Under the pieces are notes generated by a model. The model saw only the letters and a program-made list of their open reading frames with translations. It did not search any database and was not told the origin of the DNA. A DNA stretch of 35,957 nucleotides. Source: a virus. Location: the IMG/VR virus record IMGVR_UViG_3300009285_001051, positions 1-35,957 of that record; one strand, 5' to 3'. Below, in pieces: positions 1,510 through 35,733 of the stretch. The translations under genes and the position numbers were made by a program. Position 1 is the stretch's first letter. Each line of letters begins with the position of its first letter.

Positions 1510-2618
1510 ATGGAAACAAACAAGATATACTGCGGTGATTCTCTAGAAGTGCTTCGCGCGTTTCCCGATGAGAGTGTAGATTGTTGTATTACTTCCCCCC
1601 CTATTGGGGACTTCGGGATTATGGTGTTGAGAGACAACTCGGCCTAGAAAAGACACCAGAGGAGTATGTTTGCCGAATGGTTGAGGTGTTTCGTGAAGTA
1701 AAACGAGTTTTGAAAAAAGATGGGACACTCTGGTTGAACCTCGGGGATTCATACGCTGGCTCTGGCCGTGGTAGGGACGCCGATGGAACGTGGAACCAAG
1801 GCAAAGGTGGGTCAAAACAGGAAACAAACGTGGGTTCTATTACTGGACGAGTGGTAAATCATAAATCATTCAGCAAGAAAGCGATTGAGGCGGGGGTGAT
1901 TGGGAATGAGTGGGTGAAACCACCACCCGGACTAAAGCAAAAAGACCTTGTTGGTATTCCGTGGATGGTTGCGTTTGCTCTTCGTGCCGATGGCTGGTAT
2001 CTCCGGCAGGATATTATATGGGCGAAGCCAAATCCGATGCCCGAGAGCGTGAATGATAGGTGTACCAAGAGCCACGAGTATATTTTCTTGATGAGCAAAC
2101 AGCCGAAGTATTATTTTGACAACGAAGCCGTGCAAGAGGTGGCGGTTACCGATGAAAATAGACCAAGCGGTGTAGTAAGAGAAAGAGAATACGGATATAA
2201 TAGCAAACAGAAAATAATCCGCAGTATGTGGAAGGAAAAAGCGACTAGTGAAGGTTCTGTACATGTCCACAAAAAAGGTAACAAAATGGACGGAGTAAAA
2301 GATGACCCTCTATATGCAACAAAACCACAGAGAAATATGGTAACGGGCGCATTTAGGAATCGCAGAAGCGTTTGGACAGTAACAACCCACCCCTTCAAAG
2401 ACGCCCATTTCGCCACCTTCCCAGAAAAACTTATTGAGCCAATGGTGCTCGCTGGATGCCCGAAAGGAGGAATTGTTCTCGACCCATTTTTTGGCGCGGG
2501 AACCACCGGAGTCGTTTGCAAAAAACTCGGACGAAACTATATCGGCATAGACCTAAATAAGCAATACTGTGAAATGTCAGAGAAGCGTATCGCCGCCGCG
2601 CCACAGCCGTTTATCTAG
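1510..2618 (+). CDS. DNA methyltransferase (N4-C/N6-A, beta-class order), interrupted by a -1 frameshift
   Basis: ATG 1510 opens METNKIYCGDSLEVL and runs to TAG 1645-1647 (45 aa). At a run of seven C (1595-1601) a -1 shift joins it to the rest of the gene, which restores TSPPYW, the catalytic motif IV, at residues 28-33 of a 369-aa protein. The SAM-binding motif I (DPFFGAGTTG, about residues 325-334) follows near the C-terminus, so the order IV...I is that of beta-class DNA modification methylases. Family members methylate cytosine N4 or adenine N6, and in phages they usually protect against host restriction. No restriction nuclease is adjacent. The frameshift could be a sequencing error, phase variation, or ribosomal slippage; as printed, the catalytic part is out of frame. 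Confidence 0.8.
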
Positions 2619-2624
2619 TGGAAT

Positions 2625-3128
2625 ATGAATATGAAACCACCGCTTATACAAGGCGCAAGTAATGATTTTCAGACCCCACCCCAAGCATTGAATCCGCTTC
2701 TGCCATTTCTTAAAAAGGATTGGCTGATTTGGGAGTGCGCTTCTGGGAAAGGAAATCTTGTGGATGGTTTGAATAGTGAGGGATTTCTTGCTGTCGGCAC
2801 CGATATACTGACTGGACAAGATTTTCTTTCATGGAAACCAGAGCGGTTTGATTGTATCGTAACTAACCCGCCATTTTCCCTCAAAGAGAAATTTTTGGAG
2901 CGAGCATATTTTCTTGGGAAGCCGTTTGTGTTTTTGCTTCCGCTTACTACTTTAGAAGGAAAGACCCGGCAGGCACTGATGCAGATGTATGGCGTGGAAA
3001 TCATTTTATTCGACAAACGAATCAATTTTGAGACACCTTCAGGAAAAGGTAGCGGTAGTTGGTTTGCAACGGCGTGGTTTACAAATGGATTGAACATTGG
3101 CAAGGAACTAACTTTTGTGAAGTATTAG
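2625..3128 (+). CDS. Phage-type adenine-specific DNA methyltransferase
   Basis: 167 aa. An N-terminal NDFQTPPQAL segment resembles the substrate-side motif of phage DNA N6-adenine methyltransferases. A SAM-binding region follows (WECASGKGNL, about residues 35-45; TDILTG near 60), then the catalytic TNPPF motif near residue 84. It starts 6 nt after the first methyltransferase, so the two are probably co-translated and give two modification specificities. The length is close to other short phage Dam-like enzymes. It could also begin at the second ATG (2631). Target sequence unknown. Confidence 0.78.
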   Translation: MNMKPPLIQGASNDFQTPPQALNPLLPFLKKDWLIWECASGKGNLVDGLNSEGFLAVGTDILTGQDFLSWKPERFDCIVTNPPFSLKEKFLERAYFLGKPFVFLLPLTTLEGKTRQALMQMYGVEIILFDKRINFETPSGKGSGSWFATAWFTNGLNIGKELTFVKY

Positions 3129-3565: not shown

Positions 3566-3751
3566 ATGAACAAAACACAATTCGATATGCCGTTCGATAA
3601 GGATTGGTTTCAGAACCCATCGCTGTACAAAGAGTTCAACTTCAACTCGGTGATTGCGAAGATGAATAACATTAACGAGGCAATTTACGGCGTGCGGCCG
3701 TTCGTAGAAAGGGACGAGGAGCGCGACGAGGATACGGATGAGGGTCAATAA
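3566..3751 (+). CDS. Hypothetical acidic protein (61 aa)
   Basis: Starts 1 nt after the preceding stop. The N-terminal half is aromatic (MPFDKDWFQNPSLYKEF) and the C-terminal tail is highly charged (RDEERDEDTDEG). It ends directly before the nuclease start, and its last codons supply the GAGGG used as that gene's ribosome-binding site. No family recognised. Confidence 0.6.
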   Translation: MNKTQFDMPFDKDWFQNPSLYKEFNFNSVIAKMNNINEAIYGVRPFVERDEERDEDTDEGQ

Positions 3752-3752
3752 T

Positions 3753-4553
3753 ATGCGTATAGAAATAATCAAAACCAAGTCGCCGGGAATCGTGCAATGC
3801 ACGACGCTGGATGAGCGTTGGTATTCTAGGGAGGTTGCAGAAGTATCCGAATATCGCCCCTCCTCGACGTGGATTGCTGGATGTTACCCGAAGGGCGTCC
3901 AGTTCTACAAATGGCTCGCGGAGAAGGGCTGGGATGAAGCGGAAGCAATCAAGATTGCCGCCGGAGAGAAGGGTTCAAAAGTCCATAAAGCGTGCGAGCA
4001 GTTGATGAGTGGTGAGAAGGTGAAGATGGATGACAAGTTTGTGAATCCCCGGACGGAACAGCCGGAGGAGCTAATGGTAGCGGAGTGGGAATGTATTATG
4101 TCGTTTGCTTCGTGGTGGAATCAATTTGTAGAGGAGCACACGGTGGAAATCCTCGCAATCGAGCAGGTGATATTCCCTGACGGATTGCCGTATGCCGGAA
4201 CTCTCGACTACCTGCTCAAAGTAGATAAAAAGCTTGTCGTCCTCGACCTCAAGACCTCGCAGAATGTATGGACGGAGCATGAGCTTCAAATCTCCTCTTA
4301 CGCGGTCCCCTCGAATGCCGACCTCGCATGGATTCTCCAAATCGGCTACAAGCGAAACAAGGTGGGGTGGAAGCTGACCGAGTTCTCCAAGGAGGAAATC
4401 GCCACGAACTTTACGACCTTTATGTCCGTCGCGTATGAAATCTGGAAGAAGGAGAATCCCGACGCAAAGCCGAAGCAGAGGGACTACCCGACCGAATTAA
4501 AACTTACTATTCCGCCAAAGGTCGTGGACAAAGTGAGGGGTGAAAAAAAATAA
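3753..4553 (+). CDS. PD-(D/E)XK (RecB/Cas4-like) nuclease
   Basis: 266 aa. Core motifs in order: GSKVHKACEQ around residue 75 (the conserved His of RecB-type nucleases), a helix with Glu and Trp, GTLDYLL around 150 (acidic metal ligand), LDLKTS around 165 (the D...E/DxK element), and QISSYA about 15 residues on. Start 3753 has GAGGG 8 nt upstream; the frame is open to ATG 3738. Phage enzymes of this type act as exonucleases in replication-linked recombination. The neighbours, an SSB-like protein and a NinG-like HNH protein, fit a recombination module. Confidence 0.83.
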   Translation: MRIEIIKTKSPGIVQCTTLDERWYSREVAEVSEYRPSSTWIAGCYPKGVQFYKWLAEKGWDEAEAIKIAAGEKGSKVHKACEQLMSGEKVKMDDKFVNPRTEQPEELMVAEWECIMSFASWWNQFVEEHTVEILAIEQVIFPDGLPYAGTLDYLLKVDKKLVVLDLKTSQNVWTEHELQISSYAVPSNADLAWILQIGYKRNKVGWKLTEFSKEEIATNFTTFMSVAYEIWKKENPDAKPKQRDYPTELKLTIPPKVVDKVRGEKK

Positions 4554-5060: not shown

Positions 5061-5474
5061 ATGACGCGCCGCCCGAAAGACAGAGCGAAATGGAAGCCAA
5101 CGCACTGGATACGGTATCTCGATGAATTGTTTAGTAGGGCGGTGCGGTTGCGGGGAAAGTGCGAGCGATGTGGAAAGAAGCTGGGCGTGCAACTTCAGAC
5201 AAGCCATATTTATAGCCGAGCGAATAAGGAGGTACGGTGGTGTTTCTTGAATGCAACCGCTCTCTGCGCGCGTTGCCACATGGATTGGCACTCCAATCCT
5301 GTGAATGGGATTTTGTGGCTCACCGATTATTATGGAGATGAAAATATGGCAATTCTGCGAAACATGAGCCGAAAAACTCGCCAGTGGTGGCGGGGAGAAT
5401 ATGAAAAAGTCGAGAAAACATTGCTTGATGAGATAGAAAAATATGCAACAGGAAGCGGGCTACCAAAGCGATAA
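5061..5474 (+). CDS. NinG/HNH-like recombination endonuclease
   Basis: 137 aa, start preceded by GGAGGA at 9-10 nt. A zinc knuckle CERCG (near residue 35) is followed by QTSHIYSR, where the His lies where the first His of an HNH motif is expected, then NATALCARCHMDWH, completing a second Cys pair and the final His. This layout matches the lambda NinG/Rap family, structure-selective endonucleases acting on recombination intermediates. It lacks the NUMOD motifs of homing endonucleases and lies within a replication/recombination operon, which favours a housekeeping role. Confidence 0.65.
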   Translation: MTRRPKDRAKWKPTHWIRYLDELFSRAVRLRGKCERCGKKLGVQLQTSHIYSRANKEVRWCFLNATALCARCHMDWHSNPVNGILWLTDYYGDENMAILRNMSRKTRQWWRGEYEKVEKTLLDEIEKYATGSGLPKR

Positions 5475-6712: not shown

Positions 6713-6928
6713 ATGAGCGCAAACGACAAAATCATCGTATACAGGAAAGACGGTGTTTATACCGCCAAGCATATTGACGTGGATACAGGGGGCGGCGTGG
6801 TCATTGCGACGGGAACGACAATAGAGCAAGTTCGAGCTGGAATAAAACTATGGGAAGAGGAAAATCCGTACCCCGTCGAGTATGGAACGAGTTACCTTGA
6901 TAGTTGCTTCGAGGAAACAAAACTATGA
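6713..6928 (+). CDS. Hypothetical protein (71 aa)
   Basis: First gene after the long RNA hairpin. Begins MSANDKIIVYRKDGVYTAKH with alternating beta-type residues, then a helix (IEQVRAGIKLWEEEN). No Shine-Dalgarno is visible. Ends in an ATGA overlap with the next gene, where base composition drops sharply toward A/T. No family recognised. Confidence 0.58.
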   Translation: MSANDKIIVYRKDGVYTAKHIDVDTGGGVVIATGTTIEQVRAGIKLWEEENPYPVEYGTSYLDSCFEETKL

Positions 6929-7149
6929 AGAAAGAAATAGATTGGAATAAAATTAAAAATTGCTTGTGGGAATTGGAAAATTGTGTTGGGAAACCACATA
7001 CTGACTATGCAATGGAAAAACGTATTGCTGATGGTTTGTTTGAAATTTTGAAATTGCCTATTTGGAAGTTTCTTACTATTAAAAAGTGGGAATGGAAATA
7101 TGCCAAAGCCATTAACAAGCATAAAGATTGTTGTGGTTTAGTTTATTAA
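6925..7149 (+). CDS. Hypothetical AT-rich small protein (74 aa)
   Basis: ATGA overlap with the upstream stop. Begins MKKEIDWNKIKNCLWELENC; Lys- and Trp-rich, helical, with Cys residues at the end (HKDCCG). Its codons are much more A/T-rich than those of the genes before it, the first of a run of such genes up to about 8260, which suggests separate acquisition. Function unknown. Confidence 0.55.
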   Translation: MKKEIDWNKIKNCLWELENCVGKPHTDYAMEKRIADGLFEILKLPIWKFLTIKKWEWKYAKAINKHKDCCGLVY

Positions 7150-7163
7150 CCCCCAATAAAGAT

Positions 7164-7430
7164 ATGAAAAAAGAATTTGAACAAAAAGATATTAGAGGAG
7201 TTTATATTGGTTTTATTTGGGAAGCGACGCAAAGCGATGAAGCAAGAGAAAAATCCTATGATGATATGAGGTGTGTCGGAAAGTTGATAATTGGAGATAA
7301 GAAGGAAGCCGAAGGCGATGACTTAAATGACGCACCCTTTGATTGTAACGGCAGTATTTTTACAGGAAAGAATAGCGGACAAGAAATTCTATTAGAGAAA
7401 GGTAATATAGTCATTGTAATAAAAAATTAA
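7164..7430 (+). CDS. Hypothetical AT-rich protein (88 aa)
   Basis: Begins MKKEFEQKDIRGVYIGFIWE after a 14-nt gap. Acidic, with predicted beta-strands (VGKLIIGD, GNIVIVIKN). No signal peptide, membrane segment or known motif. Part of the AT-rich orphan cluster. Confidence 0.55.
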   Translation: MKKEFEQKDIRGVYIGFIWEATQSDEAREKSYDDMRCVGKLIIGDKKEAEGDDLNDAPFDCNGSIFTGKNSGQEILLEKGNIVIVIKN

Positions 7431-7433
7431 GAT

Positions 7434-7598
7434 ATGAAAGAGGAAATAAAGATAAACTGCTGTGATTGGAGAACGGTTGATGATTGTCCGATTCATAGCT
7501 CAAAGATGTGTGAATACTGCGAACGAATGAAAATGCCACACAAAATAAAAGAGTGTGAATATCACAAGGAAGTAAGAATCAGAGATGCTCAAACCTAA
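7434..7598 (+). CDS. Small Cys-rich, probably zinc-binding protein (54 aa)
   Basis: Starts 3 nt after the preceding stop. Begins MKEEIKINCCDWR and contains CCDW...DCPIH...MCEYCERM...ECEYH, seven Cys plus His residues, enough for at least one zinc site. AT-rich like its neighbours. Function unknown. Confidence 0.6.
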   Translation: MKEEIKINCCDWRTVDDCPIHSSKMCEYCERMKMPHKIKECEYHKEVRIRDAQT

Positions 7599-7601
7599 CC
7601 A

Positions 7602-7949
7602 ATGAATATAGATAAAGACGGGAAATTAGATATACCAAAATGCACCTGTAACTTTCCCGCAGAGACCGCTCGTGAAATCGGGCATTACAAAGATTGTCCC
7701 AGAACCAGGGAAAAGACATGGTGGCAGGAGAAAAGAGAACTAAATATGACTACAGAGCGAGTAAAAGAAATTATGGATTTATTTTTGTCTAAAGTCAGAA
7801 AGCCAGTTTCCCAAGAACAAATTGAATGGGAATTAGATTTTAGAACTCACTTGTTATATGAATTGGAGAGAATGCGAGAGATTATTCGTTGCGAGCGTGA
7901 TGCGGAGCCGATTATATCGCAGAGTTTACCGACGACGGCAGGAAGGTAA
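7602..7949 (+). CDS. Hypothetical protein (115 aa), C-terminus possibly frameshifted
   Basis: Begins MNIDKDGKLDIPKCTCNF; a Cys/His cluster (KCTC...GHYKDCP) is followed by a long helix (VKEIMDLFLSKV, HLLYELERMREII). Another frame is open from 7901 to 8023 and reads like real protein, so the printed C-terminus may be the result of a frameshift near 7895. Function unknown. Confidence 0.5.
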   Translation: MNIDKDGKLDIPKCTCNFPAETAREIGHYKDCPRTREKTWWQEKRELNMTTERVKEIMDLFLSKVRKPVSQEQIEWELDFRTHLLYELERMREIIRCERDAEPIISQSLPTTAGR

Positions 7950-13194: not shown

Positions 13195-13663
13195 TTGGCA
13201 AATTCTTTAACTAGTGTAGCCCCCTACATTTGGGCGCGTGAGGCGCAACGGTCGCTCTTCGTCGAAAACAAGGCGATGGCGATTGCGAATACCACGCTCC
13301 GAAATCTTGTAGCGGGCGAAGGTAGCTTGGTTTATAGGCAGATTCTGTCATATCCTGCGTCTTCGACGTACACGCCGGGTTCTGACATTACGAACGTGGC
13401 GATTTCGTCTTCATCGGAATCGCTCTCTATCGGCACCTATATCGCTTCCAAGGTGACGGTGGACGACACGGAGAAGCGGCAGTCCATTATTGACCTCGCG
13501 CGAAATATCACGAAGAAGATGATGGCTGACCACAATAACCGTATCGAGCAGGCGGTATTGGGTCAAGTCTCGAATGCGGTGTGGAGCATGGATGACGGTG
13601 AACCTACCGATATTGCCGTCAAAAAATTTGGCTATATGCTGGAACAACTCGTTAAGCTCTTGG
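13195..13663 (+). CDS. Major capsid protein, exon 1
   Basis: TTG start: MANSLTSVAPYIWAREAQRS is the typical opening of P22/HK97-like coat proteins (MANSLT...). The frame continues with RQILSYPASSTYTPG and a helix DLARNITKKMMADHN. About 156 residues in, at LVKLL, the frame enters intron sequence and would stop at 13690-13692. Joined to 14404-15233 it gives 432 aa in frame, reading LLVYDNKMNIGG across the junction. No Shine-Dalgarno precedes the TTG, odd for the most abundant virion protein. The exact 5' splice position is uncertain by one nucleotide. Confidence 0.85.
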
Positions 13664-13731
13664 TAGGTGGATTAAATCCCCTGAAAATCTAAGAGATAGA
13701 GTCAATCAGCAGGAAAGTTCTTTGAAAGTTT

Positions 13732-13760
13732 TTGACAATAGGTGGCACATCTGGTAAGAT
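13732..13760 (+). promoter_or_regulatory. Consensus promoter inside the intron, leaderless start at ATG 13768
   Basis: Perfect TTGACA (13732-13737), 17-nt spacer, TAAGAT (13755-13760) with an upstream TGG (extended -10), then 7 nt to ATG 13768. The endonuclease therefore appears to have its own promoter, independent of capsid transcription. Confidence 0.75.
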
Positions 13761-13767
13761 TTCTTTA

Positions 13768-14355
13768 ATGCCAAAAGGAATACCAGCAAACGGAATAAAT
13801 ACAGGTCAATTCAAAAAAGGACAAATACCTTACAATAAAGGACTAAAACGTCCCGAGATGTCTGGAGAAAACAATCCTTTATGGAATGGAGGAAAAAGGA
13901 AAAAGAAATGTATCGTTTGCGGGAAGGAAATGTTACGAGATAAGTGCCAAATAGAAAGAGCAAAATTTTGTTCACATAGTTGCAAGGCAAAATTCAATCT
14001 TACTGGAGAAAAACAATGGAAATGGAAAGGTGGTATAAGTAAGAATCGAGAAAAATTAAAAGGTTCTAACCTATATCGAGAATGGAGATTAAGGGTTTTT
14101 CAAAGAGATAGATTTACTTGTAAGTTATGTGGACATAGAAGTAGGAAAAGCAAAGCACACGGAGATAAGACTAGTGATATACAAGCTCATCATGTAGAAA
14201 CAATAGAAAAATCTCCGAAACTTTGTTTGAAAGAAGGAAATGGAATAACTCTTTGTATAAATTGTCATAGATTGACCTACGGAAAAGAAGAACAATTTTC
14301 TAAGGTCTTCAAAGAAATCCTCAACGACTACATGCCGAACAATCCGAAAGGATAA
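13768..14355 (+). CDS. Intron-encoded HNH homing endonuclease
   Basis: 195 aa. N-terminal motifs GQFKKGQIPYNKGLKRPEMS and NNPLWNGGK are typical of HNH homing enzymes. Two zinc knuckles CIVCG and CSHSC follow, then FTCKLCG, QAHHVE and LCINCHR, the HNH core with its metal-binding Cys pairs. It would cut intronless capsid alleles and drive intron homing. The last codons (LNDYMP) are the R and P7 sequence of the ribozyme, so protein and RNA core are encoded by the same bases. AT-rich compared with the exons, as expected for a mobile gene. Confidence 0.88.
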   Translation: MPKGIPANGINTGQFKKGQIPYNKGLKRPEMSGENNPLWNGGKRKKKCIVCGKEMLRDKCQIERAKFCSHSCKAKFNLTGEKQWKWKGGISKNREKLKGSNLYREWRLRVFQRDRFTCKLCGHRSRKSKAHGDKTSDIQAHHVETIEKSPKLCLKEGNGITLCINCHRLTYGKEEQFSKVFKEILNDYMPNNPKG

Positions 14356-14403
14356 AGATATAGTCTGAACTAACGGGAGACCGTTAGAAGTAGGCAGTAA
14401 AAG

Positions 14404-15233
14404 TCTACGATAACAAAATGAACATCGGCGGTACTTCGGGGAGCAATATATCCCTGAACACCTCGAACATTCCACAGGTATTCATCGCCGCAGACACGAA
14501 ACTTGACGCGACGGATGCGCCAAAGGCAGGTCGCACGGCGGTTGTCGGCGGGCACTTCCTTGGTCTTCTGAAACTCCAGCAAGCAAGTCGGAATACGGTC
14601 TTTGGTGATGGTGTGAACACGCGTGGCGTGGTCACGAACCTGTTCGGGTGGGACATTCTCTACTCGAACAACCTCCCGTACTCGGCGACGCTTACGATGG
14701 CGACGAAACCGACAACTGGTGATACGGTTACGATTGCAGGAGTTGCGTTTACCTTTACTGCTTCGGCAGTGACGGCGGCACAGCTTTCGTTCTGTTCTAC
14801 GGCGGCAACATGCGTCGCAAACTTCGTGGCGGCGTTGAATGCGCCTGCGACGGACATTGCGAACACGGCAACGACTGGGTATGTAGCGGTCTCATCGGAA
14901 AACGCCTTTTTGCTCCGTGATAAGCGGCGCATCTCGGCGGTAGATGGGACTACGACCATCGCGCTTTCTGGGTACGGAGACATTGTGGTTTCGGAGACGC
15001 TTTCTGCCGCTGCGGACGTATGGAGCGCACAGCTTCAGAAGTCCCTCTTTGCGGTTCGCGGATGCGTTGACCAGATTGTTCAGATTCCTCCAAAGATTGA
15101 GGTTGTGCGCGACCCTGATCAGTTCTCGGACATCGTGAAGTCGCTCCTCGGGTACGGGGTAAAGACCTTTGCGGACGGCGCACGCGAGATGGTCTACGCA
15201 AAAATCAACGCCGGAACGGCAGACTGGTCCTAG
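14404..15233 (+). CDS. Major capsid protein, exon 2
   Basis: Continues exon 1 in frame: VYDNKMNIGGTSGSNISL, then VFIAADTKLDAT, NTVFGDGVNT, and a domain starting near SATLTMATKPTTGDTVTI that looks like an inserted immunoglobulin-like or beta domain, then LFAVRGCVDQ and a C-terminal core strand. Composition (G/C-rich, Ala/Thr-rich) matches exon 1, not the intron. The product should form the icosahedral shell. ATG 14418 could act as an internal start if splicing failed, yielding only the C-terminal part. Confidence 0.82.
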
Positions 15234-18825: not shown

Positions 18826-20278
18826 AAACAATACATTTTCAGTAACACTCTCCAAGTTTTACCTCGGACAAGCTCCACTCGTGCATCTTGATTCACTCTC
18901 TGAAATGGGTGAGAGTGGACAGTACACGGTTGGAACGAATGTGGATGTTGTTAGCGTCCCCGGCGTTCTTACGCAGGGTCCGGGACTTGCTAACCTGACT
19001 GCCGGAACGCAAGCGGGCGCGGTTACGGAACTCATCAATCATATTCTCGATGTTGCGGTTGCTTCGGATGTTACCTATGGAATAGGGGCAACCAAATTAT
19101 TCAAGATAAGTTCCACGGCGGTTGCGAGCGACGCGACGTGGCCGCACGCCATCACTCTCTGTCTCGATGGTGAGAGTGTGGTGAGTTTGCGGGGAAACCT
19201 TTACTACTTTTTCAATAAGACTGTTGGTTCCGGTGGGGACATCGGGAAGTATGACCTCGCGTCTTCATTCGATGATGATTGGGGTTCTACGGTGCCAAGT
19301 GGGGCTGGGGCACTTCAGTTCGCCAACCACCCCGTTGCAGTTAAGGAAGATATCATGTGCTTTGGGAATGGGAGATACATGGGGACGTATCTTGATGCCT
19401 CGACAACCATCAATCTGACGAAACTTGATTTTGGTATCGGCACTTCAGTTGATGATGTAGTGTTTCACGCGAACCAGTGGTATATCGCGGTGAACTCCGG
19501 TGTAACGGGGACGAATCGGACACGGGGGCAAATTTACCTCTACGACGGCGGGGTAACATCCGCAATCCTCTCCGACGAGACGGCAGTAGGTGTTCAGCGT
19601 ATCGGGTTTCTCTACCCGTTGAATGGCGTTGTCTACGTTGCATATCAAGACCTTTCTTCAACGGGCGGGTACAAGATAGGGTATTTGAGCGGTCGGCAGT
19701 TAAAGACCCTTCGGCACTTCACTGGTTCGCTTCCGAACTTCGCGCAGAAGACCCTGTTTCAGAACACGATACTATTCCTTTCCTCCGGGTCCGTGTGGAG
19801 TTGCGGAGCGGTGATAGACCAGCTTCCGGTGCAAATCAGCCAGCTCGCGGACGGTGGATACGCAACCTGCGGGGCGCTCGCGGCGCCATTTGGGACTCCC
19901 ATGATTGCCTCTACGGACGGAGGTTCAAACTTCAAGCTTGCAAAGTTTTCAGGATATGGCACGGCAAGTTCATGGAAGTCGCTCGTCATCTCGGTAATGC
20001 AGGGGCGGATGCTCGGACTCATTGATGATGTGATTGTAACCACCAAGTCATTGGGTTCCGGCGCGTCTTGCACACTAACTATCGAGACGAATCAGTTTAC
20101 TTCCACCTCTACTCCACAAACTATCGCCACTACGGGGAAGCGTCGGCACGTTTTCAATAATCTCGGACTCCTTGCGTTTGAGGATTTTAGAATTGCTCTA
20201 GATTTTTCTAGTGGATCGGCGACAAACGATTGCGGGATAAAGAAAATACAAATAGTCGGACACTACGTTGAGCGTTAA
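18815..20278 (+). CDS. Putative tail nozzle or beta-propeller-like tail protein
   Basis: 487 aa from ATG 18815, which overlaps the adaptor gene. Beta-rich throughout with repeating blade-like segments (GNLYYFFNKTVGSGG, NQWYIAVNSGVTGTN, NGVVYVAYQDLSSTGG, GSVWSCGAVID), consistent with a propeller-type nozzle of short-tailed phages. No catalytic motif. The end (GIKKIQIVGHYVER) looks like a finishing strand. Equally could be a different tail structural protein. Confidence 0.5.
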   Translation: MVSKNNTFSVTLSKFYLGQAPLVHLDSLSEMGESGQYTVGTNVDVVSVPGVLTQGPGLANLTAGTQAGAVTELINHILDVAVASDVTYGIGATKLFKISSTAVASDATWPHAITLCLDGESVVSLRGNLYYFFNKTVGSGGDIGKYDLASSFDDDWGSTVPSGAGALQFANHPVAVKEDIMCFGNGRYMGTYLDASTTINLTKLDFGIGTSVDDVVFHANQWYIAVNSGVTGTNRTRGQIYLYDGGVTSAILSDETAVGVQRIGFLYPLNGVVYVAYQDLSSTGGYKIGYLSGRQLKTLRHFTGSLPNFAQKTLFQNTILFLSSGSVWSCGAVIDQLPVQISQLADGGYATCGALAAPFGTPMIASTDGGSNFKLAKFSGYGTASSWKSLVISVMQGRMLGLIDDVIVTTKSLGSGASCTLTIETNQFTSTSTPQTIATTGKRRHVFNNLGLLAFEDFRIALDFSSGSATNDCGIKKIQIVGHYVER

Positions 20279-20279
20279 A

Positions 20280-22487
20280 ATGGTAGATATCACTCCTAAC
20301 CTCAATATCCCCACTTCCGAGTTTGAGGTGGTGATTCCGCAGACCGTACAGGATACCCCCGGACAGATAATCGGCGGGTGGGGGGCTTCGTCGGGTCAGC
20401 TTTCGAGCGGGAATGTAATTTTGGATGCAACGCATGAGCAGTTGCGGATAGGCGCCGCCACGTCTCCTACCGTGGGACTGGGGGTGTTTTTAGGGAAAAG
20501 CGGAAGTTACTACCAGTTTCGTGTGGGCGACCCCGCAGGCAATAACATTTTGTGGGATGGAGTAACACTTACGGTGTCTGCTGCTGCCCTTACGGGAAGT
20601 GTGCCTGTTGCCGCATTAAACATTGCGGATAGGGGATGGTCGCAGACGTGTGCGTTTTCGGTTACTGACGCTGATACGGTAGCGTGGGGTGCTGGGACTT
20701 TCACCTCTGCTGATGGGACTGCGTACTCTATTTCTGGTGGGAATACGGGGAACATGGCGGCAAAGACCTACGTCTACCTCGATATAGCAGTTTCTACGAC
20801 TGCGTACCAGACGACCACTACAGGGACGACGGCAGTTGGCGTGGGAAAGGTGATGATTGCGGTTGCTCAAAATGGAACCGGTGAAGCGACCTATCAAGTT
20901 TTAAGCGGACAGGGCGGATTAAATATAGATGCCGCAAACATCGTAGCCGGGTCAATCACGGCGACAGAATTGGCGGATTTAGCAGTGAGCACGGCAAAAG
21001 TAGCGGCTTCAGCGATTACTACTGCGAAAATTGCCGCCGATGCCGTTACTGCCGCGGAAATAGCAACTGGAGCTGTTGGCTCTACGGAGTTGGCGGTGGG
21101 AGCGGTGATTGCGGGAAAAATTACTGCTGGCACCATTGTTTCCGCTGATATAGCCGCTAATACCATTACAGCTGGAAATATTGCCGCACTTACTATTACT
21201 GCTTCAGAAATAGCTGCTGGAGCTATTACAACAAATAAAATCGCGGCTTTGGCGGTTACGGCGGCTGAAATAGCTGCCAATACTATCACTGCTGCGAAAA
21301 TTGTTGCGGGAACAATCACTACTACAGAAATAGCGGCTAATACCATTGTAGCGGGGGATATTGCCGCTAATACGATTACCGCAAACGAGCTTTCAACCTC
21401 CATCACCTACGCGGGTACAATCGTGATTGACACCGCAGGGAACATCCGAAGCGGACAAACGACATTCAACACGGGGACGGGATGGTTTATTGGGAATGTA
21501 GGGGGGACACCAAAATTATCTATTGGGAACCCTGCGGCGAAGTATCTTGCGTGGGATGGTTCCGATCTTGTTATTAACGGATATATTGCCAGTAGTGCGC
21601 TTGGTGGCGATGGTTCCGATGGCGCATTGAGTATTTCCAGTGGAACTACAACGCTTGATTTAGGAGGTGCGAGGGTATTTGTTAAAAACTATTCTTCAAT
21701 TTCAATTACAGGAACCGGAAAATTGGCGTTTTCTAATGCTCATGCGAGTGGGACAATAATTTTCATTCGTTCACAGGGGAATGTAACACTGACCTCTTCG
21801 ACTGCGCCGATGATTGATGCGTCCGGCATGGGCGCTGCGGGTGGTGGCGCGGCATCAGGAACAGGAACGGGGAATGGTGCTAATGGCACCGATGCACTTG
21901 GAGCATTGATAAAATCAAATAAGGGGACTGGTTCAACTACTAGCGCAGTTGGTACTGGTGGAGCGACAACGGCTGTATTTTCGATGGACATTTTTAATTC
22001 GTATCTTGTCCAAAAATACAATCAGATATTTATAGGTGCTGGAGGTGGAGGTGGGAGTATCTCCAATATCAATGGAAATGGAAACAATTACACGGCCGGA
22101 AGTGGCGATGCTGGTGGCGCTTCACTTATCATAGAATGTGGCGGTGCGTGGAATTTTACTACCGCAAGTGGTATTTCAGTTGCCGGTATAAATGGCGGCA
22201 ATGCAGGTACGGATCAGCCGAAATGTGGCGGGGGCGGAGGAGGAGGAGCGGGAGGGCAGTTGCAAGTAAACTATTATTCATTGACTGCAAATACTGGTAC
22301 AGTTGTAACGTCTGGCGGAACTGGAGGATTAGCGGAATGGAATACATCCGGTGTTTCGTATGGTGGTGGAGGTGGTGGAAATCCAATAAATGCCGGTGCG
22401 GATGGGACATCTACTACTATTGATGGGGTAAAAACGGGTGGAGATGGTGGAGCTGGATATTCTACAATTCAGCAATTTAGATTTTAA
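20280..22487 (+). CDS. Tail fibre with degenerate ~10-residue repeats and Gly-rich end
   Basis: 735 aa from ATG 20280. After an N-terminal attachment part (MVDITPNLNIPTSEFEVV), a shaft of repeats of the form ITAxxIAAxT runs about residues 235-375, as in triple-stranded fibre shafts. A later region is very Gly-rich (GAGGGGGSISNINGNG and further runs), possibly a flexible tip or a glycine-rich receptor-binding domain. No chaperone domain is seen at the C-terminus, which ends in STIQQFRF. Likely receptor binding. Confidence 0.72.
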   Translation: MVDITPNLNIPTSEFEVVIPQTVQDTPGQIIGGWGASSGQLSSGNVILDATHEQLRIGAATSPTVGLGVFLGKSGSYYQFRVGDPAGNNILWDGVTLTVSAAALTGSVPVAALNIADRGWSQTCAFSVTDADTVAWGAGTFTSADGTAYSISGGNTGNMAAKTYVYLDIAVSTTAYQTTTTGTTAVGVGKVMIAVAQNGTGEATYQVLSGQGGLNIDAANIVAGSITATELADLAVSTAKVAASAITTAKIAADAVTAAEIATGAVGSTELAVGAVIAGKITAGTIVSADIAANTITAGNIAALTITASEIAAGAITTNKIAALAVTAAEIAANTITAAKIVAGTITTTEIAANTIVAGDIAANTITANELSTSITYAGTIVIDTAGNIRSGQTTFNTGTGWFIGNVGGTPKLSIGNPAAKYLAWDGSDLVINGYIASSALGGDGSDGALSISSGTTTLDLGGARVFVKNYSSISITGTGKLAFSNAHASGTIIFIRSQGNVTLTSSTAPMIDASGMGAAGGGAASGTGTGNGANGTDALGALIKSNKGTGSTTSAVGTGGATTAVFSMDIFNSYLVQKYNQIFIGAGGGGGSISNINGNGNNYTAGSGDAGGASLIIECGGAWNFTTASGISVAGINGGNAGTDQPKCGGGGGGGAGGQLQVNYYSLTANTGTVVTSGGTGGLAEWNTSGVSYGGGGGGNPINAGADGTSTTIDGVKTGGDGGAGYSTIQQFRF
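20980..21390 (+). repeat. Degenerate tandem repeats encoding the fibre shaft
   Basis: About a dozen units of 30 nt (10 residues, pattern xITAxxIAAx) follow one another, diverged at DNA level but regular in protein. Boundaries are approximate. Confidence 0.65.
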
Positions 22488-30248: not shown

Positions 30249-32940
30249 CATTATTATTGCGGTTATTGTTGCTGGAATTTCAATTTCCGCATCTATTAGC
30301 GCCCAGAACCTTACACCGCTAAACCCGTGGAAGTTCCAAGGGACTACTATCGTTCCAAATAATTCCTCTTCGTCGGTACGAATTCCCGTGCTTGGCGCAA
30401 CTGGTTCTCCGTGCGTAGTAGTGAGTTCATCGGGTACGCTTTCAACCACCGCGTGTAGTTCAGGCTCCGCCACCACCACCATCAACGGCGCCAACGGCCC
30501 TACTTTCACCTTCCTCGGCACCACAAACCAAATCACCATCGCATCCTCGGCGCCAGCAACGCTTACCTGGTCCCTCCCCTCGACCATCTCCGTTACCACC
30601 GTCTCCTCGACGAATGTGAACGCGACGAACGTAACTGCAGATACGCTGAATGTTACCTCCATCGCCTCCTCCCCCTTCGTGGTGGGTGGCTCTGCGACAA
30701 CGACCATTTACGGCAACGGCTCGGTGTCCACGTTCGGGGGCGGCATCTCCGCGACCACAGGCGCGTTCTCGGCGACAACTACATTTCCCGGCTCTGGTAT
30801 TTGGACTTCCTCGGGCAACGTCGGCATCGGGACGACTGCGCCCGGCAACAAGCTGGACGTGGCTGGCGGCATCGGGGTGGGGGCCTCCTACGTTGGCACC
30901 TCGACTCCGTCAAATGGGATGATAATTCAAGGCAACGTCGGCATCGGGACGACGAGTCCTGCAGTAAGCTTACACGTTTTAAGCACAACACAGGGCGGAA
31001 CTGCTTTTGGGCAACAATTTAGAATAGATGGGGGCACGGGAGCGGGAGCAGGTCTTGGTTTTTATACAAGTGCTGCGGGGGCAGACAGAAGAAATTGGCA
31101 CATTGGTTCAGAGGGAGTAGATCCTCAGGGTAATTTGGCGATATATATGTCTACGAGCGCTGGTGGTGCACCTAATACTGCTGTTATGTTGTTTAATAAA
31201 GACGGCAACGTCGGCATCGGGACGGCGAGTCCGAATCATCCATTAACAATTAGTTCTGCTACATCGGGTGGGACTGTATTGGGATTGTATACCTCAAATG
31301 TTAACCAAGCTAACGCACGTAATTGGGCTATAACTGCCGACCAACAGGTTTATGGTGATTTTCATATTAGGACAAGCACTGCCTTAGGTGGGAATCCAAT
31401 AAGTGCTGGAGTGAGTAGGTTGGTGATAGATAACAATGGCAACGTCGGCATCGGGGAAGTGGCACCAGGGAGTAAATTAAGTGTCTCTGGAGGTGGAAGT
31501 TTTGGAGCAGGATATGACACGACTGCGGCTCCAACGGGAGGATTAATAATAGAAGGCAACGTCGGCATCGGGACCGTGTCTCCGAGTAGCACGCTGCATG
31601 TGTCCGGCGGCTTCCAGGTCGGGGCGAGTAACCTGTACGTGAGTTCAACCTCGGGCAACGTCGGCATCGGGACGACGGGACCAAGTTTTCCGCTACACAT
31701 TGTGAACGCCGATGGTTCATCTTTCCGTCTGAGAACTGGTGGACAATTTGATGTAGTTAGTACAGACAACAAAGCTGGTTATTTATACTCACGTCCTAGT
31801 AGTGGCAATTTTGAGCTTGGCCCCGTCACTACCGGTGCCGCGCTTCTACTTCAAACCCGTAATGGTACAAATCGTGGTGTGTTTAATGATAGTGGTAATG
31901 TTGGACTCGGCGGAGCAATCACTGATGCTAGCACGCTGGCTGGTTCGAGTGTAGTAATAAGTAGCGGCAACGTCGGCATCGGGACGACGGGGCCTGTGGC
32001 GACTTTGGAGGTAAGCAGTGCGTTAGATGAACCAATGAGAATGAATCATTCACAGCCAGGATATTTTGAAATTAATAGAGCAAGCACTGCCCATGACTCG
32101 CTGATAGCTTGGTCAGACTTAGATGTTAGAAAGTGGTATCTTGGTCAACGTAGCACAGATGGGGATACGTCATTTCATTTGTTCAGCACTGCAAAGACTG
32201 GCGGGGCGGGGGATGTGATGACAGTATTAAACACCGGCAACGTCGGCATCGGGACGACAACTCCCGCCTATACGCTTTCGGTGGTAGGGAACGTGCAATT
32301 TGCCACGCTTGCGACCACCACCGCGACAAATTACCTCACGACGGACTCCACAGGAAAGCTGGTGCTGGCGAGTGGCGCGAGCGCGGGCGTTTCCTCATGG
32401 GGCGGTTCTGCATCCTCTACCCAGACTTATGCGACGGGAACTGCTACTGGTATTGGCTTGAACATCACGACGGCGAACGGGGTACACACCTGGACGCCCA
32501 CAGTAACGAGCGGGTACGAAATACCGACAACTGCCTCAACAAGTGCGTGGAATACAGCAGGCGCAGGTAGCACTGTATTCTTCACAAGACAGGGTAATTG
32601 GAATGTAACTTCCTTTGATGTTCGATATATGAGTCCTTTAGGCGCTTATACTGGCGAGTCACAAGTTTGGTTCATTACCGCGAAAGGGGGGACGATTAAA
32701 AATCTCTATATTAGGGCAGTAAGTCATAGCATGAATAATGGCACTAAATTCCGGGTGAGAGTGAATGGAGTTGACACTAATATAAATGTTGACCTTGCAA
32801 CAAGCGTATTAACAGGAAATGATACTGTTAATACAGCATCTGTATCAGCCGGTGATTATATTACTGTCAAAATAGATACTGCCAGTTCAAGTTCTGGGTC
32901 AATCGGTAATCCGACTGCCGCCTTTGAGATAGCTTTCTAA
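30229..32940 (+). CDS. Large tail fibre with GNVGIG repeats
   Basis: 903 aa from ATG 30229. A signal-like N-terminus (NIIIAVIVAGISISASISAQ) is unusual for a virion protein. The body has eight GNVGIG modules (protein repeats like those of trimeric adhesin heads), each followed by a TxxP...L.VSG-like strand and a variable cassette of 20-100 residues. The C-terminal ~150 residues (STVFFTRQGNWNVTSFDVRY and on) form a distinct beta-rich domain, probably the receptor-binding tip. GC content of cassettes varies strongly while the repeats do not. Probably recognises host surface structures. Confidence 0.75.
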   Translation: MHNLKRNIIIAVIVAGISISASISAQNLTPLNPWKFQGTTIVPNNSSSSVRIPVLGATGSPCVVVSSSGTLSTTACSSGSATTTINGANGPTFTFLGTTNQITIASSAPATLTWSLPSTISVTTVSSTNVNATNVTADTLNVTSIASSPFVVGGSATTTIYGNGSVSTFGGGISATTGAFSATTTFPGSGIWTSSGNVGIGTTAPGNKLDVAGGIGVGASYVGTSTPSNGMIIQGNVGIGTTSPAVSLHVLSTTQGGTAFGQQFRIDGGTGAGAGLGFYTSAAGADRRNWHIGSEGVDPQGNLAIYMSTSAGGAPNTAVMLFNKDGNVGIGTASPNHPLTISSATSGGTVLGLYTSNVNQANARNWAITADQQVYGDFHIRTSTALGGNPISAGVSRLVIDNNGNVGIGEVAPGSKLSVSGGGSFGAGYDTTAAPTGGLIIEGNVGIGTVSPSSTLHVSGGFQVGASNLYVSSTSGNVGIGTTGPSFPLHIVNADGSSFRLRTGGQFDVVSTDNKAGYLYSRPSSGNFELGPVTTGAALLLQTRNGTNRGVFNDSGNVGLGGAITDASTLAGSSVVISSGNVGIGTTGPVATLEVSSALDEPMRMNHSQPGYFEINRASTAHDSLIAWSDLDVRKWYLGQRSTDGDTSFHLFSTAKTGGAGDVMTVLNTGNVGIGTTTPAYTLSVVGNVQFATLATTTATNYLTTDSTGKLVLASGASAGVSSWGGSASSTQTYATGTATGIGLNITTANGVHTWTPTVTSGYEIPTTASTSAWNTAGAGSTVFFTRQGNWNVTSFDVRYMSPLGAYTGESQVWFITAKGGTIKNLYIRAVSHSMNNGTKFRVRVNGVDTNINVDLATSVLTGNDTVNTASVSAGDYITVKIDTASSSSGSIGNPTAAFEIAF
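30814..32253 (+). repeat. Eight identical 18-bp dispersed repeats in the fibre gene
   Basis: GGCAACGTCGGCATCGGG is present without change at 30814, 30931, 31204, 31438, 31555, 31654, 31966 and 32236. A degenerate relative (AATGTTGGACTCGG) lies near 31897. Spacing varies from 99 to 312 nt, and all copies are in the same frame encoding GNVGIG. Confidence 0.95.
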
Positions 32941-35127: not shown

Positions 35128-35733
35128 ATGAAGGGTTTCAAGAATCCGAGACATGTTGGTTATGTGGTAAGTGCAGAAACGAGAAGAAAACTAAGTGAAG
35201 CAAATCGTGGTCATAAACCATGGAATACAGGTAAAACAGGTAGAAAGTATAGCGAAGAAGTGCTGGCTCTCTATCGAACACCTGAATACATTGAAAGATC
35301 TAGAAAAAATGCGTTGAAAAATGGGTTAGGGAAAAGGGGTATCCCAAAATCTGAAGAATGGAAAAGAAAGATGGTCGCTAGTATGAAGAAGTGGCGCGAT
35401 TCATTAACACCAGAACAGAAAATTGAGTTGTTGAAAAAGCGAAAGAGTAATCCAGTTAGGGGTGAGAAAAGCCATTTCTGGAAAGGTGGAATAACTCCAA
35501 TAAACTTAAAAATAAGAAACTCTGCTGAATATAAACTTTGGAGAACATCTGTTTTTGTTCGGGATAATTTTACCTGTATCTGGTGTGGTGTTCGTGGTAG
35601 AGAGCTAAACGCTGACCATATCAAGCCATTTGCTCTTTATCCTGAATTGCGGTTTGCGATAGATAACGGCAGGACATTGTGTCGTAAATGTCATTTATTA
35701 ACAGATACTTTTGGAGGAAACATTATCAAATAA
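35128..35733 (+). CDS. Free-standing HNH homing endonuclease with NUMOD3-like repeats
   Basis: 201 aa. Repeated NUMOD3-like DNA-binding motifs ([43 protein letters not shown]) precede an HNH domain: [26 protein letters not shown]. No group I core motif was found around it, so it appears intronless. AT-rich, inserted between two holin-like genes; it probably moves by cutting a neighbouring site in related phages. Confidence 0.85.

Follow-up and report, generated by a model that had tools for sequence, protein, structure and literature searches.

A phage tail fibre assembled from cassettes at DNA-identical 18-bp seams, probably exchanged within a pool shared with Patescibacteria

The tail fibre gene analysed here contains eight exact, in-frame copies of GGCAACGTCGGCATCGGG, each encoding GNVGIG, which divide the central part of the protein into compositionally distinct cassettes of 27-98 aa between seams. 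The explanation that best accounts for this arrangement as a whole, and which we hold to be probably correct, is that of a trimeric fibre whose cassettes are joined and exchanged at the 18-bp seams and drawn from a pool shared by phages and Patescibacteria. The fibre would consist of beta-rich cassettes in series, with a capping loop of the form GNVGIGT-x-x-P-x-x-x-L at the entry to each, and the 18 bp encoding GNVGIG would form the seam that joins them. The short homology between seams (18 to 24 bp) would most likely be used by homologous or annealing recombination, acting inside a single gene as well as between fibre genes brought together by co-infection or carried by the host, so that whole cassettes could be duplicated, deleted or imported in frame. 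Repeated exchange would keep the DNA of the seams uniform and leave the cassettes with the composition of their sources, the pool being one presumably common to these phages and to the fibre genes of Patescibacteria themselves.

The window, by which we mean the whole stretch of DNA analysed, comprises 35,957 bases, a single record of a viral collection; its other genes include those for a terminase, a portal-like protein and a head protein, together with long structural genes. The fibre protein was recognised as such by its match to PHROG 9942 and by its position in the late block, where its gene is flanked by structural genes and a lysozyme-like gene; an N-terminal region extending to about 30813 is followed by cassettes 1-8 and a C-terminal region (Table 1), and the Pfam scan assigned no family to the protein. 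A second fibre-like protein, rich in AANTITAAKI-type repeats and matching tail-fibre families, is encoded at 20268-22487 (+).

Table 1. Coordinates of the fibre gene, its seams and cassettes, and candidate recombination genes in the window
Feature	Coordinates	Strand	Evidence or remark
PD-(D/E)XK exonuclease, candidate recombination function	3738..4553	+	PHROG 298 exonuclease 2e-25; PF12705 above cut-off
NinG/Rap junction endonuclease, candidate recombination function	5061..5474	+	PHROG 5034 6e-15; PF05766 above cut-off
Tail fibre gene, 903 aa	30229..32940	+	ORF; PHROG 9942 (2.9e-16) and 18345
Seam repeat 1 (18-mer, GNVGIG)	30814..30831	+	exact match
Cassette 1	30832..30930	+	33 aa; GC3 0.73; homologous to cassette 4
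Seam repeat 2	30931..30948	+	exact match
Cassette 2	30949..31203	+	85 aa; GC3 0.32
Seam repeat 3	31204..31221	+	exact match
Cassette 3	31222..31437	+	72 aa; GC3 0.32; partial relatives in L105 (39 aa, 54% identity)
Seam repeat 4	31438..31455	+	exact match
Cassette 4	31456..31554	+	33 aa; GC3 0.21; common to Patescibacteria gene L547, L245, L119, L546/L063
Seam repeat 5	31555..31572	+	exact match
Cassette 5	31573..31653	+	27 aa; GC3 0.78
Seam repeat 6	31654..31671	+	exact match
Cassette 6	31672..31965	+	98 aa; GC3 0.31; contains decayed motif
Decayed ninth motif GNVGLG, GGTAATGTTGGACTCGGC, within cassette 6	31894..31911	+	sequence
Seam repeat 7	31966..31983	+	exact match
Cassette 7	31984..32235	+	84 aa; GC3 0.43
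Seam repeat 8	32236..32253	+	exact match
Cassette 8, start of C-terminal region	32254..32505	+	GC3 0.64; end arbitrary, without further motif

The earlier note on this DNA had claimed that the repeat is unchanged even at its wobble bases and that the cassettes between copies differ in composition, and both claims are borne out. All eight copies are exact and lie inside the fibre gene, and no further copy is found in the window even when one to three mismatches are allowed; 0.02 copies would be expected by chance, and eight were reached in none of 100 shuffles. Measured against the gene's own codon usage with the motifs excluded, the probability of eight copies sharing one 18-mer is 2.5e-20, and both GTC (3 of 38 Val codons) and ATC (3 of 20 Ile codons) are rare in the cassette region outside the motifs. 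Identity partly continues on the 3' side of the seam, where ACG comes next in six of the eight copies, and not on the 5' side. Position 10 of the motif is an invariant proline encoded, from seam 1 to seam 8, by CCC, CCT, CCG, CCA, CCG, CCA, CCT and CCC, each of the four codons thus being used twice, which means that DNA identity is confined to the motif and ends abruptly. The ninth motif differs from the seam in both protein and DNA. The cassettes range in GC3 from 0.21 to 0.78 (chi-square P 9e-11; cassette 1 versus cassette 4, P 6e-5), and cassettes 1 and 4 are identical at 16/33 amino acids and only 46/99 bases, yet are bounded by seams identical at 18/18. Repeats as diverged as their surroundings, which the earlier note had named as evidence against swapping, are therefore not what is found, the seams being invariant.

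At the protein level the motif appears to match the capping loop of trimeric fibres of the mosaic adhesive trimer (MAT) and S74 type. All eight copies read VGIG-x-x-x-P, most of them going on x-x-K/T/S-L, and GNVGIGT-x-x-P-x-x-x-L thus repeatedly fits the MAT consensus V-G-(x)-G/N-x-x-x-P-x-x-x-L, located at beta-helix edges (PMC10769870), the consensus being one position shorter as printed, with a hydrophobic residue taken as missing from the text. The only sequence match in the PDB was a weak one, to the MAT fibre Bd2133 of Bdellovibrio (8OND, E 0.0023). The C-terminal S74 chaperone domain that defines the S74 subgroup is absent from the window fibre according to Pfam, while the related chromosomal gene in L560 carries PF13884; the window fibre may belong to the non-S74 subgroup. 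An AlphaFold2 monomer of cassettes 3-5 was a poor model with few strands (mean pLDDT 64, pTM 0.35). By analogy with such fibres, the cassettes may represent the domains between caps, in which case a swap at the cap would keep the trimer in register. The capping-loop motif and the chimeric make-up, and putatively the trimeric beta-helix modules, are features shared with the MAT proteins of Bdellovibrio (Caulton et al. 2024, PMC10769870) and with S74-type phage fibres; that paper covers protein modularity and tip exchange, whereas searches of its text found no mention of DNA-identical seams or of shuffling at the capping loop.

Cassette 4 is the only cassette of the window with a near match elsewhere. 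Together with its seams (31438-31572) it recurs in a Patescibacteria gene (L547, in genome G244), with 32/33 amino acids and 77/99 bases identical; the identity spans exactly from the start of the upstream 18-mer to the end of the downstream one, and the next 60 bases beyond each seam match at 0.30 and 0.42, which is the level of chance. L245, L119 and L546/L063 carry cassette 4 with the same boundaries, each with other neighbours. The central proposal of the earlier note, that cassettes are exchanged at the repeats, is thus supported in the window itself by a cassette shared motif-to-motif amid unrelated neighbours.

The G244 gene encodes a product of 2273 aa with a signal-like N-terminus and an S74 domain, and adjoins genes which, by our reading of the sequences, are presumably LemA-like and HtpX-like; given these protein features and neighbours, it looks chromosomal rather than part of a prophage. 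A cassette common to a phage fibre and to a fibre gene on a Patescibacteria chromosome points to exchange between virus and bacterium, in a group where surface recognition is almost unstudied, and the viral and bacterial fibres appear to be built from one shared kit of parts. In L546 (genome G405) the cassette between two seams at 6829-7932 is a kelch beta-propeller, so that the seams seem able to carry whole foreign domains. The sharing of cassettes also suggests that this phage may infect a patescibacterium, but matches to its terminase among 380 Patescibacteria genomes were only three, all distant.

Whether the motif marks the borders of exchange more generally was addressed by an all-versus-all comparison of 217 fibre-like genes from phages and Patescibacteria (1448 motifs, near-duplicates dropped), in which a switch was scored where one 30-bp flank of an aligned motif was homologous and the other was not, with controls offset by 30-150 bp. 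At an identity of at least 90%, switches occurred at 42 of 61 motif sites (19 gene pairs; offset mean 0.044, maximum 0.25), and at no less than 80% at 79 of 129 (offset mean 0.087, maximum 0.38), amounting to 61-69% of comparable motif sites versus 4-9% at offset positions; the rate is highest at the motif and drops within about 12 bp. Differences within the motif at switch sites lie predominantly on the non-homologous side (35 versus 13, sign test P 0.001), as expected for a joint inside the motif; this count took in some overlapping loci of the same genomes, without which the switch rates were recomputed, and an earlier, smaller half-motif test had given P 0.11, significance being reached after more genes were added. 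BLAST alignments tend to extend into conserved motifs, so initial breakpoint counts taken from their ends (34% versus 9%) gave way to the flank-identity test and its offset controls.

The products of such events can be read plainly in individual genes. In L321 a two-cassette unit of 582 bp is present in tandem, 100% identical, with a middle motif that is a hybrid of the outer two, L309 similarly carries a tandem duplication of 504 bp with a hybrid middle motif, and in L063 one cassette occurs at least five times amid unrelated neighbours. The concentration of switches at the motif, the hybrid junction motifs and the repeated cassettes thus extend the support for exchange at the repeats to relatives of the window gene.

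Some of these loci deserve separate mention. L321 and L572/L573 (G002 contig 3, 38,547 bases) lie in a Parcubacteria bin, on a head-to-tail dimer of a 19.26-kb element with 30% GC that bears a capping-loop fibre gene and a resolvase-like ORF; the element is probably a circular virus or plasmid. The first cassette on the reverse strand of L063 (about 77-1312) contains an apparent Hint/intein-type insert (ECIVKGS ... VAHN) in the fibre protein. The L063 viral contig and contig 7 of the bacterial genome G405 share the same fibre gene at about 99-100% identity, differing by about 946 bp missing between two copies of one cassette; this looks like a live deletion, with an assembly error also possible, and it was not counted as proof because a 116-bp exact repeat at the joint permits such an error.

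How tail fibres gain modules in frame, by recombination at limited homology or by random joints followed by selection, is a long-standing question, to which these data contribute joints that can be placed with the precision of a motif, simultaneously in many genes and with synonymous sites as an internal control. On the second of these explanations, illegitimate recombination would be followed by selection, joints surviving only at the capping loop, where the trimer remains intact, and the seam DNA would play no part. We consider this unlikely, though it has real points in its favour, since solved fibre structures have the motif as a border element (PMC10769870) and some switches fall at motifs of differing DNA sequence, which also means that full seam identity is unnecessary for exchange. 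It fails, however, to predict the synonymous identity of eight seams beside a random proline codon, and leaves unexplained both the within-gene codon identity, high from G1 to G6 and lower at T8 and P10, and the overrepresentation of a single DNA version in unselected genomes. Selection surely helps by favouring joints at the cap, and selection for domain-border joints could produce part of the pattern without homology, but by itself selection at the cap leaves the synonymous identity unexplained.

The distribution of the motif in other genomes bears on the same point. GGCAACGTCGGCATCGGG is present in at least 117 stretches of viral contigs and at least 117 of prokaryotic contigs, Patescibacteria and other groundwater lineages being frequent among the genome matches listed for it. 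A scan unbiased with respect to synonymous choice found 205 GNVGIG motifs comprising 140 distinct 18-mers, and the protein therefore does not dictate uniform seams; nearly uniform seams are nonetheless found in several genes, low-GC genomes included. Among 287 unselected Patescibacteria genomes searched, with counts taken from the matches listed (141 motifs in 36 genomes), GGCAACGTCGGCATCGGG minus its last base is the commonest version, at 12 of 141 against 1.3 expected on the assumption of independent codons (maximum 6 in 2000 permutations), and its one-step neighbours rank next in abundance. Judged by sequence counts of this kind, one founder sequence looks to have spread and then decayed.

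It could also be argued that the 18-mer is directly selected as a nucleic-acid signal (a protein binding site, a recombinase site or an RNA element), apart from homologous exchange or in addition to it. The persistence of a GC-rich word in low-GC genomes, an element of about 30% GC among them, would fit such a signal, as would its being the modal version in unselected Patescibacteria among the matches listed, and exchange does not fully explain why a GC-rich seam persists in elements of about 30% GC. We nevertheless rate this reading as quite improbable: most GNVGIG genes elsewhere use other versions, as the 140 distinct 18-mers show, so that the word is needed neither for the protein nor generally, in the window it occurs only as a coding motif, and neither an Rfam family nor a recombinase gene turned up alongside it. 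The relatedness of the short cassettes 1 and 4 might suggest recent amplification of one unit whose cassettes then diverged without exchange, which is scarcely credible given that amplification would make all parts equally old, that the cassette bodies are as diverged as unrelated sequence beside seams free of mutation, and that cassette 4 has near-identical partners with different neighbours in other genomes. Resemblance by chance through codon bias, on a motif conserved at the protein level, is likewise contradicted (P about 1e-20, with GTC and ATC rare outside the motif) and can be dismissed with near certainty.

A more far-reaching version of the preferred reading, exchange at the seams, would have GGCAACGTCGGCATCGGG act as a DNA-level 'universal joint', maintained because exchange itself is selected for, and would place phage tail fibres and the chromosomal fibre proteins of groundwater lineages, Patescibacteria among them, in one global cassette pool, within which phage and host trade recognition domains; we put this forward tentatively and regard it as doubtful.

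The closest precedent for exchange at the seams is the gp38 adhesin of T-even phages, in which glycine-rich motifs alternate with hypervariable segments and recombination between motifs swaps specificity (Tetart et al. 1998 and Trojet et al., as cited and described in PMC12529663 and PMC6630733). Both are host-recognition proteins in which conserved glycine-containing motifs alternate with variable segments reshuffled by recombination at the motifs, and here too homology between variable segments breaks at the motif (the 61-69% versus 4-9% given above). In contrast with gp38, a small tip adhesin of T4-like phages, the seams of the window are DNA-identical, each cassette amounts to a whole fibre domain and bacterial chromosomal genes belong to the pool as well; the PHROG matches of the window fibre are to tail-fibre families other than gp38. 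That motifs can guide the swapping of host-recognition segments was already known from gp38, as were modular capping-loop fibres from Bdellovibrio and phages; within the searched literature, the novelty lies in the seam being identical in DNA, in its having spread through Patescibacteria and their phages, and in the mapping of the joints.

Temperate phages are also known for relaxed homologous recombination through Red-type recombinases, Orf and Rap, the last of which strongly increases RecA-dependent phage recombination (PMC3945230). Alike in both is that pieces are exchanged by way of homology, short or diverged, at their borders, with Rap contributing; the difference is that the homologies there are ordinary flanking genes, whereas here they are repeated in-frame seams within one gene, with no Red-beta-like protein recognised. 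The phage's own exonuclease and Rap-like nuclease (Table 1) may take part in the exchange. Comparison of the window proteins with PHROGs and Pfam recognised no annealing recombinase, and of the idea of a built-in diversification system, swapping at the repeats is supported while its being built in is conjectural, no dedicated recombinase having been recognised among these proteins. Two other routes were rejected on the same searches: site-specific inversion, there being no site-specific recombinase among the window proteins and the repeats being direct, in frame and on one strand, and DGR diversification, there being no reverse transcriptase with a template repeat.

Close relatives of the phage were sought with several of its genes. 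Its fibre, the upstream gene and a 1588-aa gene found almost nothing close in IMG/VR; among annotated phages there was no match in DNA, and the protein matches were two, both weak. Terminase relatives were found in 175 stretches (best 71-73% identity); GNVGIG DNA of any kind occurs in only 5 of 42 terminase-relative records, and genes adjoining the window fibre had no match in such records, which are too distant for a test of cassette order. The same cassettes in the same order in all relatives, the second outcome that would have spoken against swapping, were thus not encountered, the closest terminase relative found having different cassettes, but at a distance too great to decide the matter. 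Since no close relative with a comparable fibre was found, exchange in the phage's own lineage was not seen directly; the related genes suggest that the same events occurred there. Judging by the gene family, the cassettes would bind receptors, and swaps might then alter receptor choice.

Several other features of the window may be of interest. The major head protein gene (13195-15233, +) is split into an N-terminal part (13195-13692) and a C-terminal part (14418-15233), between which lies an HNH endonuclease ORF (13732-14355); the region gave no Rfam intron match, and by its sequence the arrangement looks like a homing-endonuclease intron or a similar insertion. Another HNH endonuclease ORF is located near the right end of the window (35128-35733, +), and two adjoining DNA methyltransferase genes are found at 1581-3128 (+).
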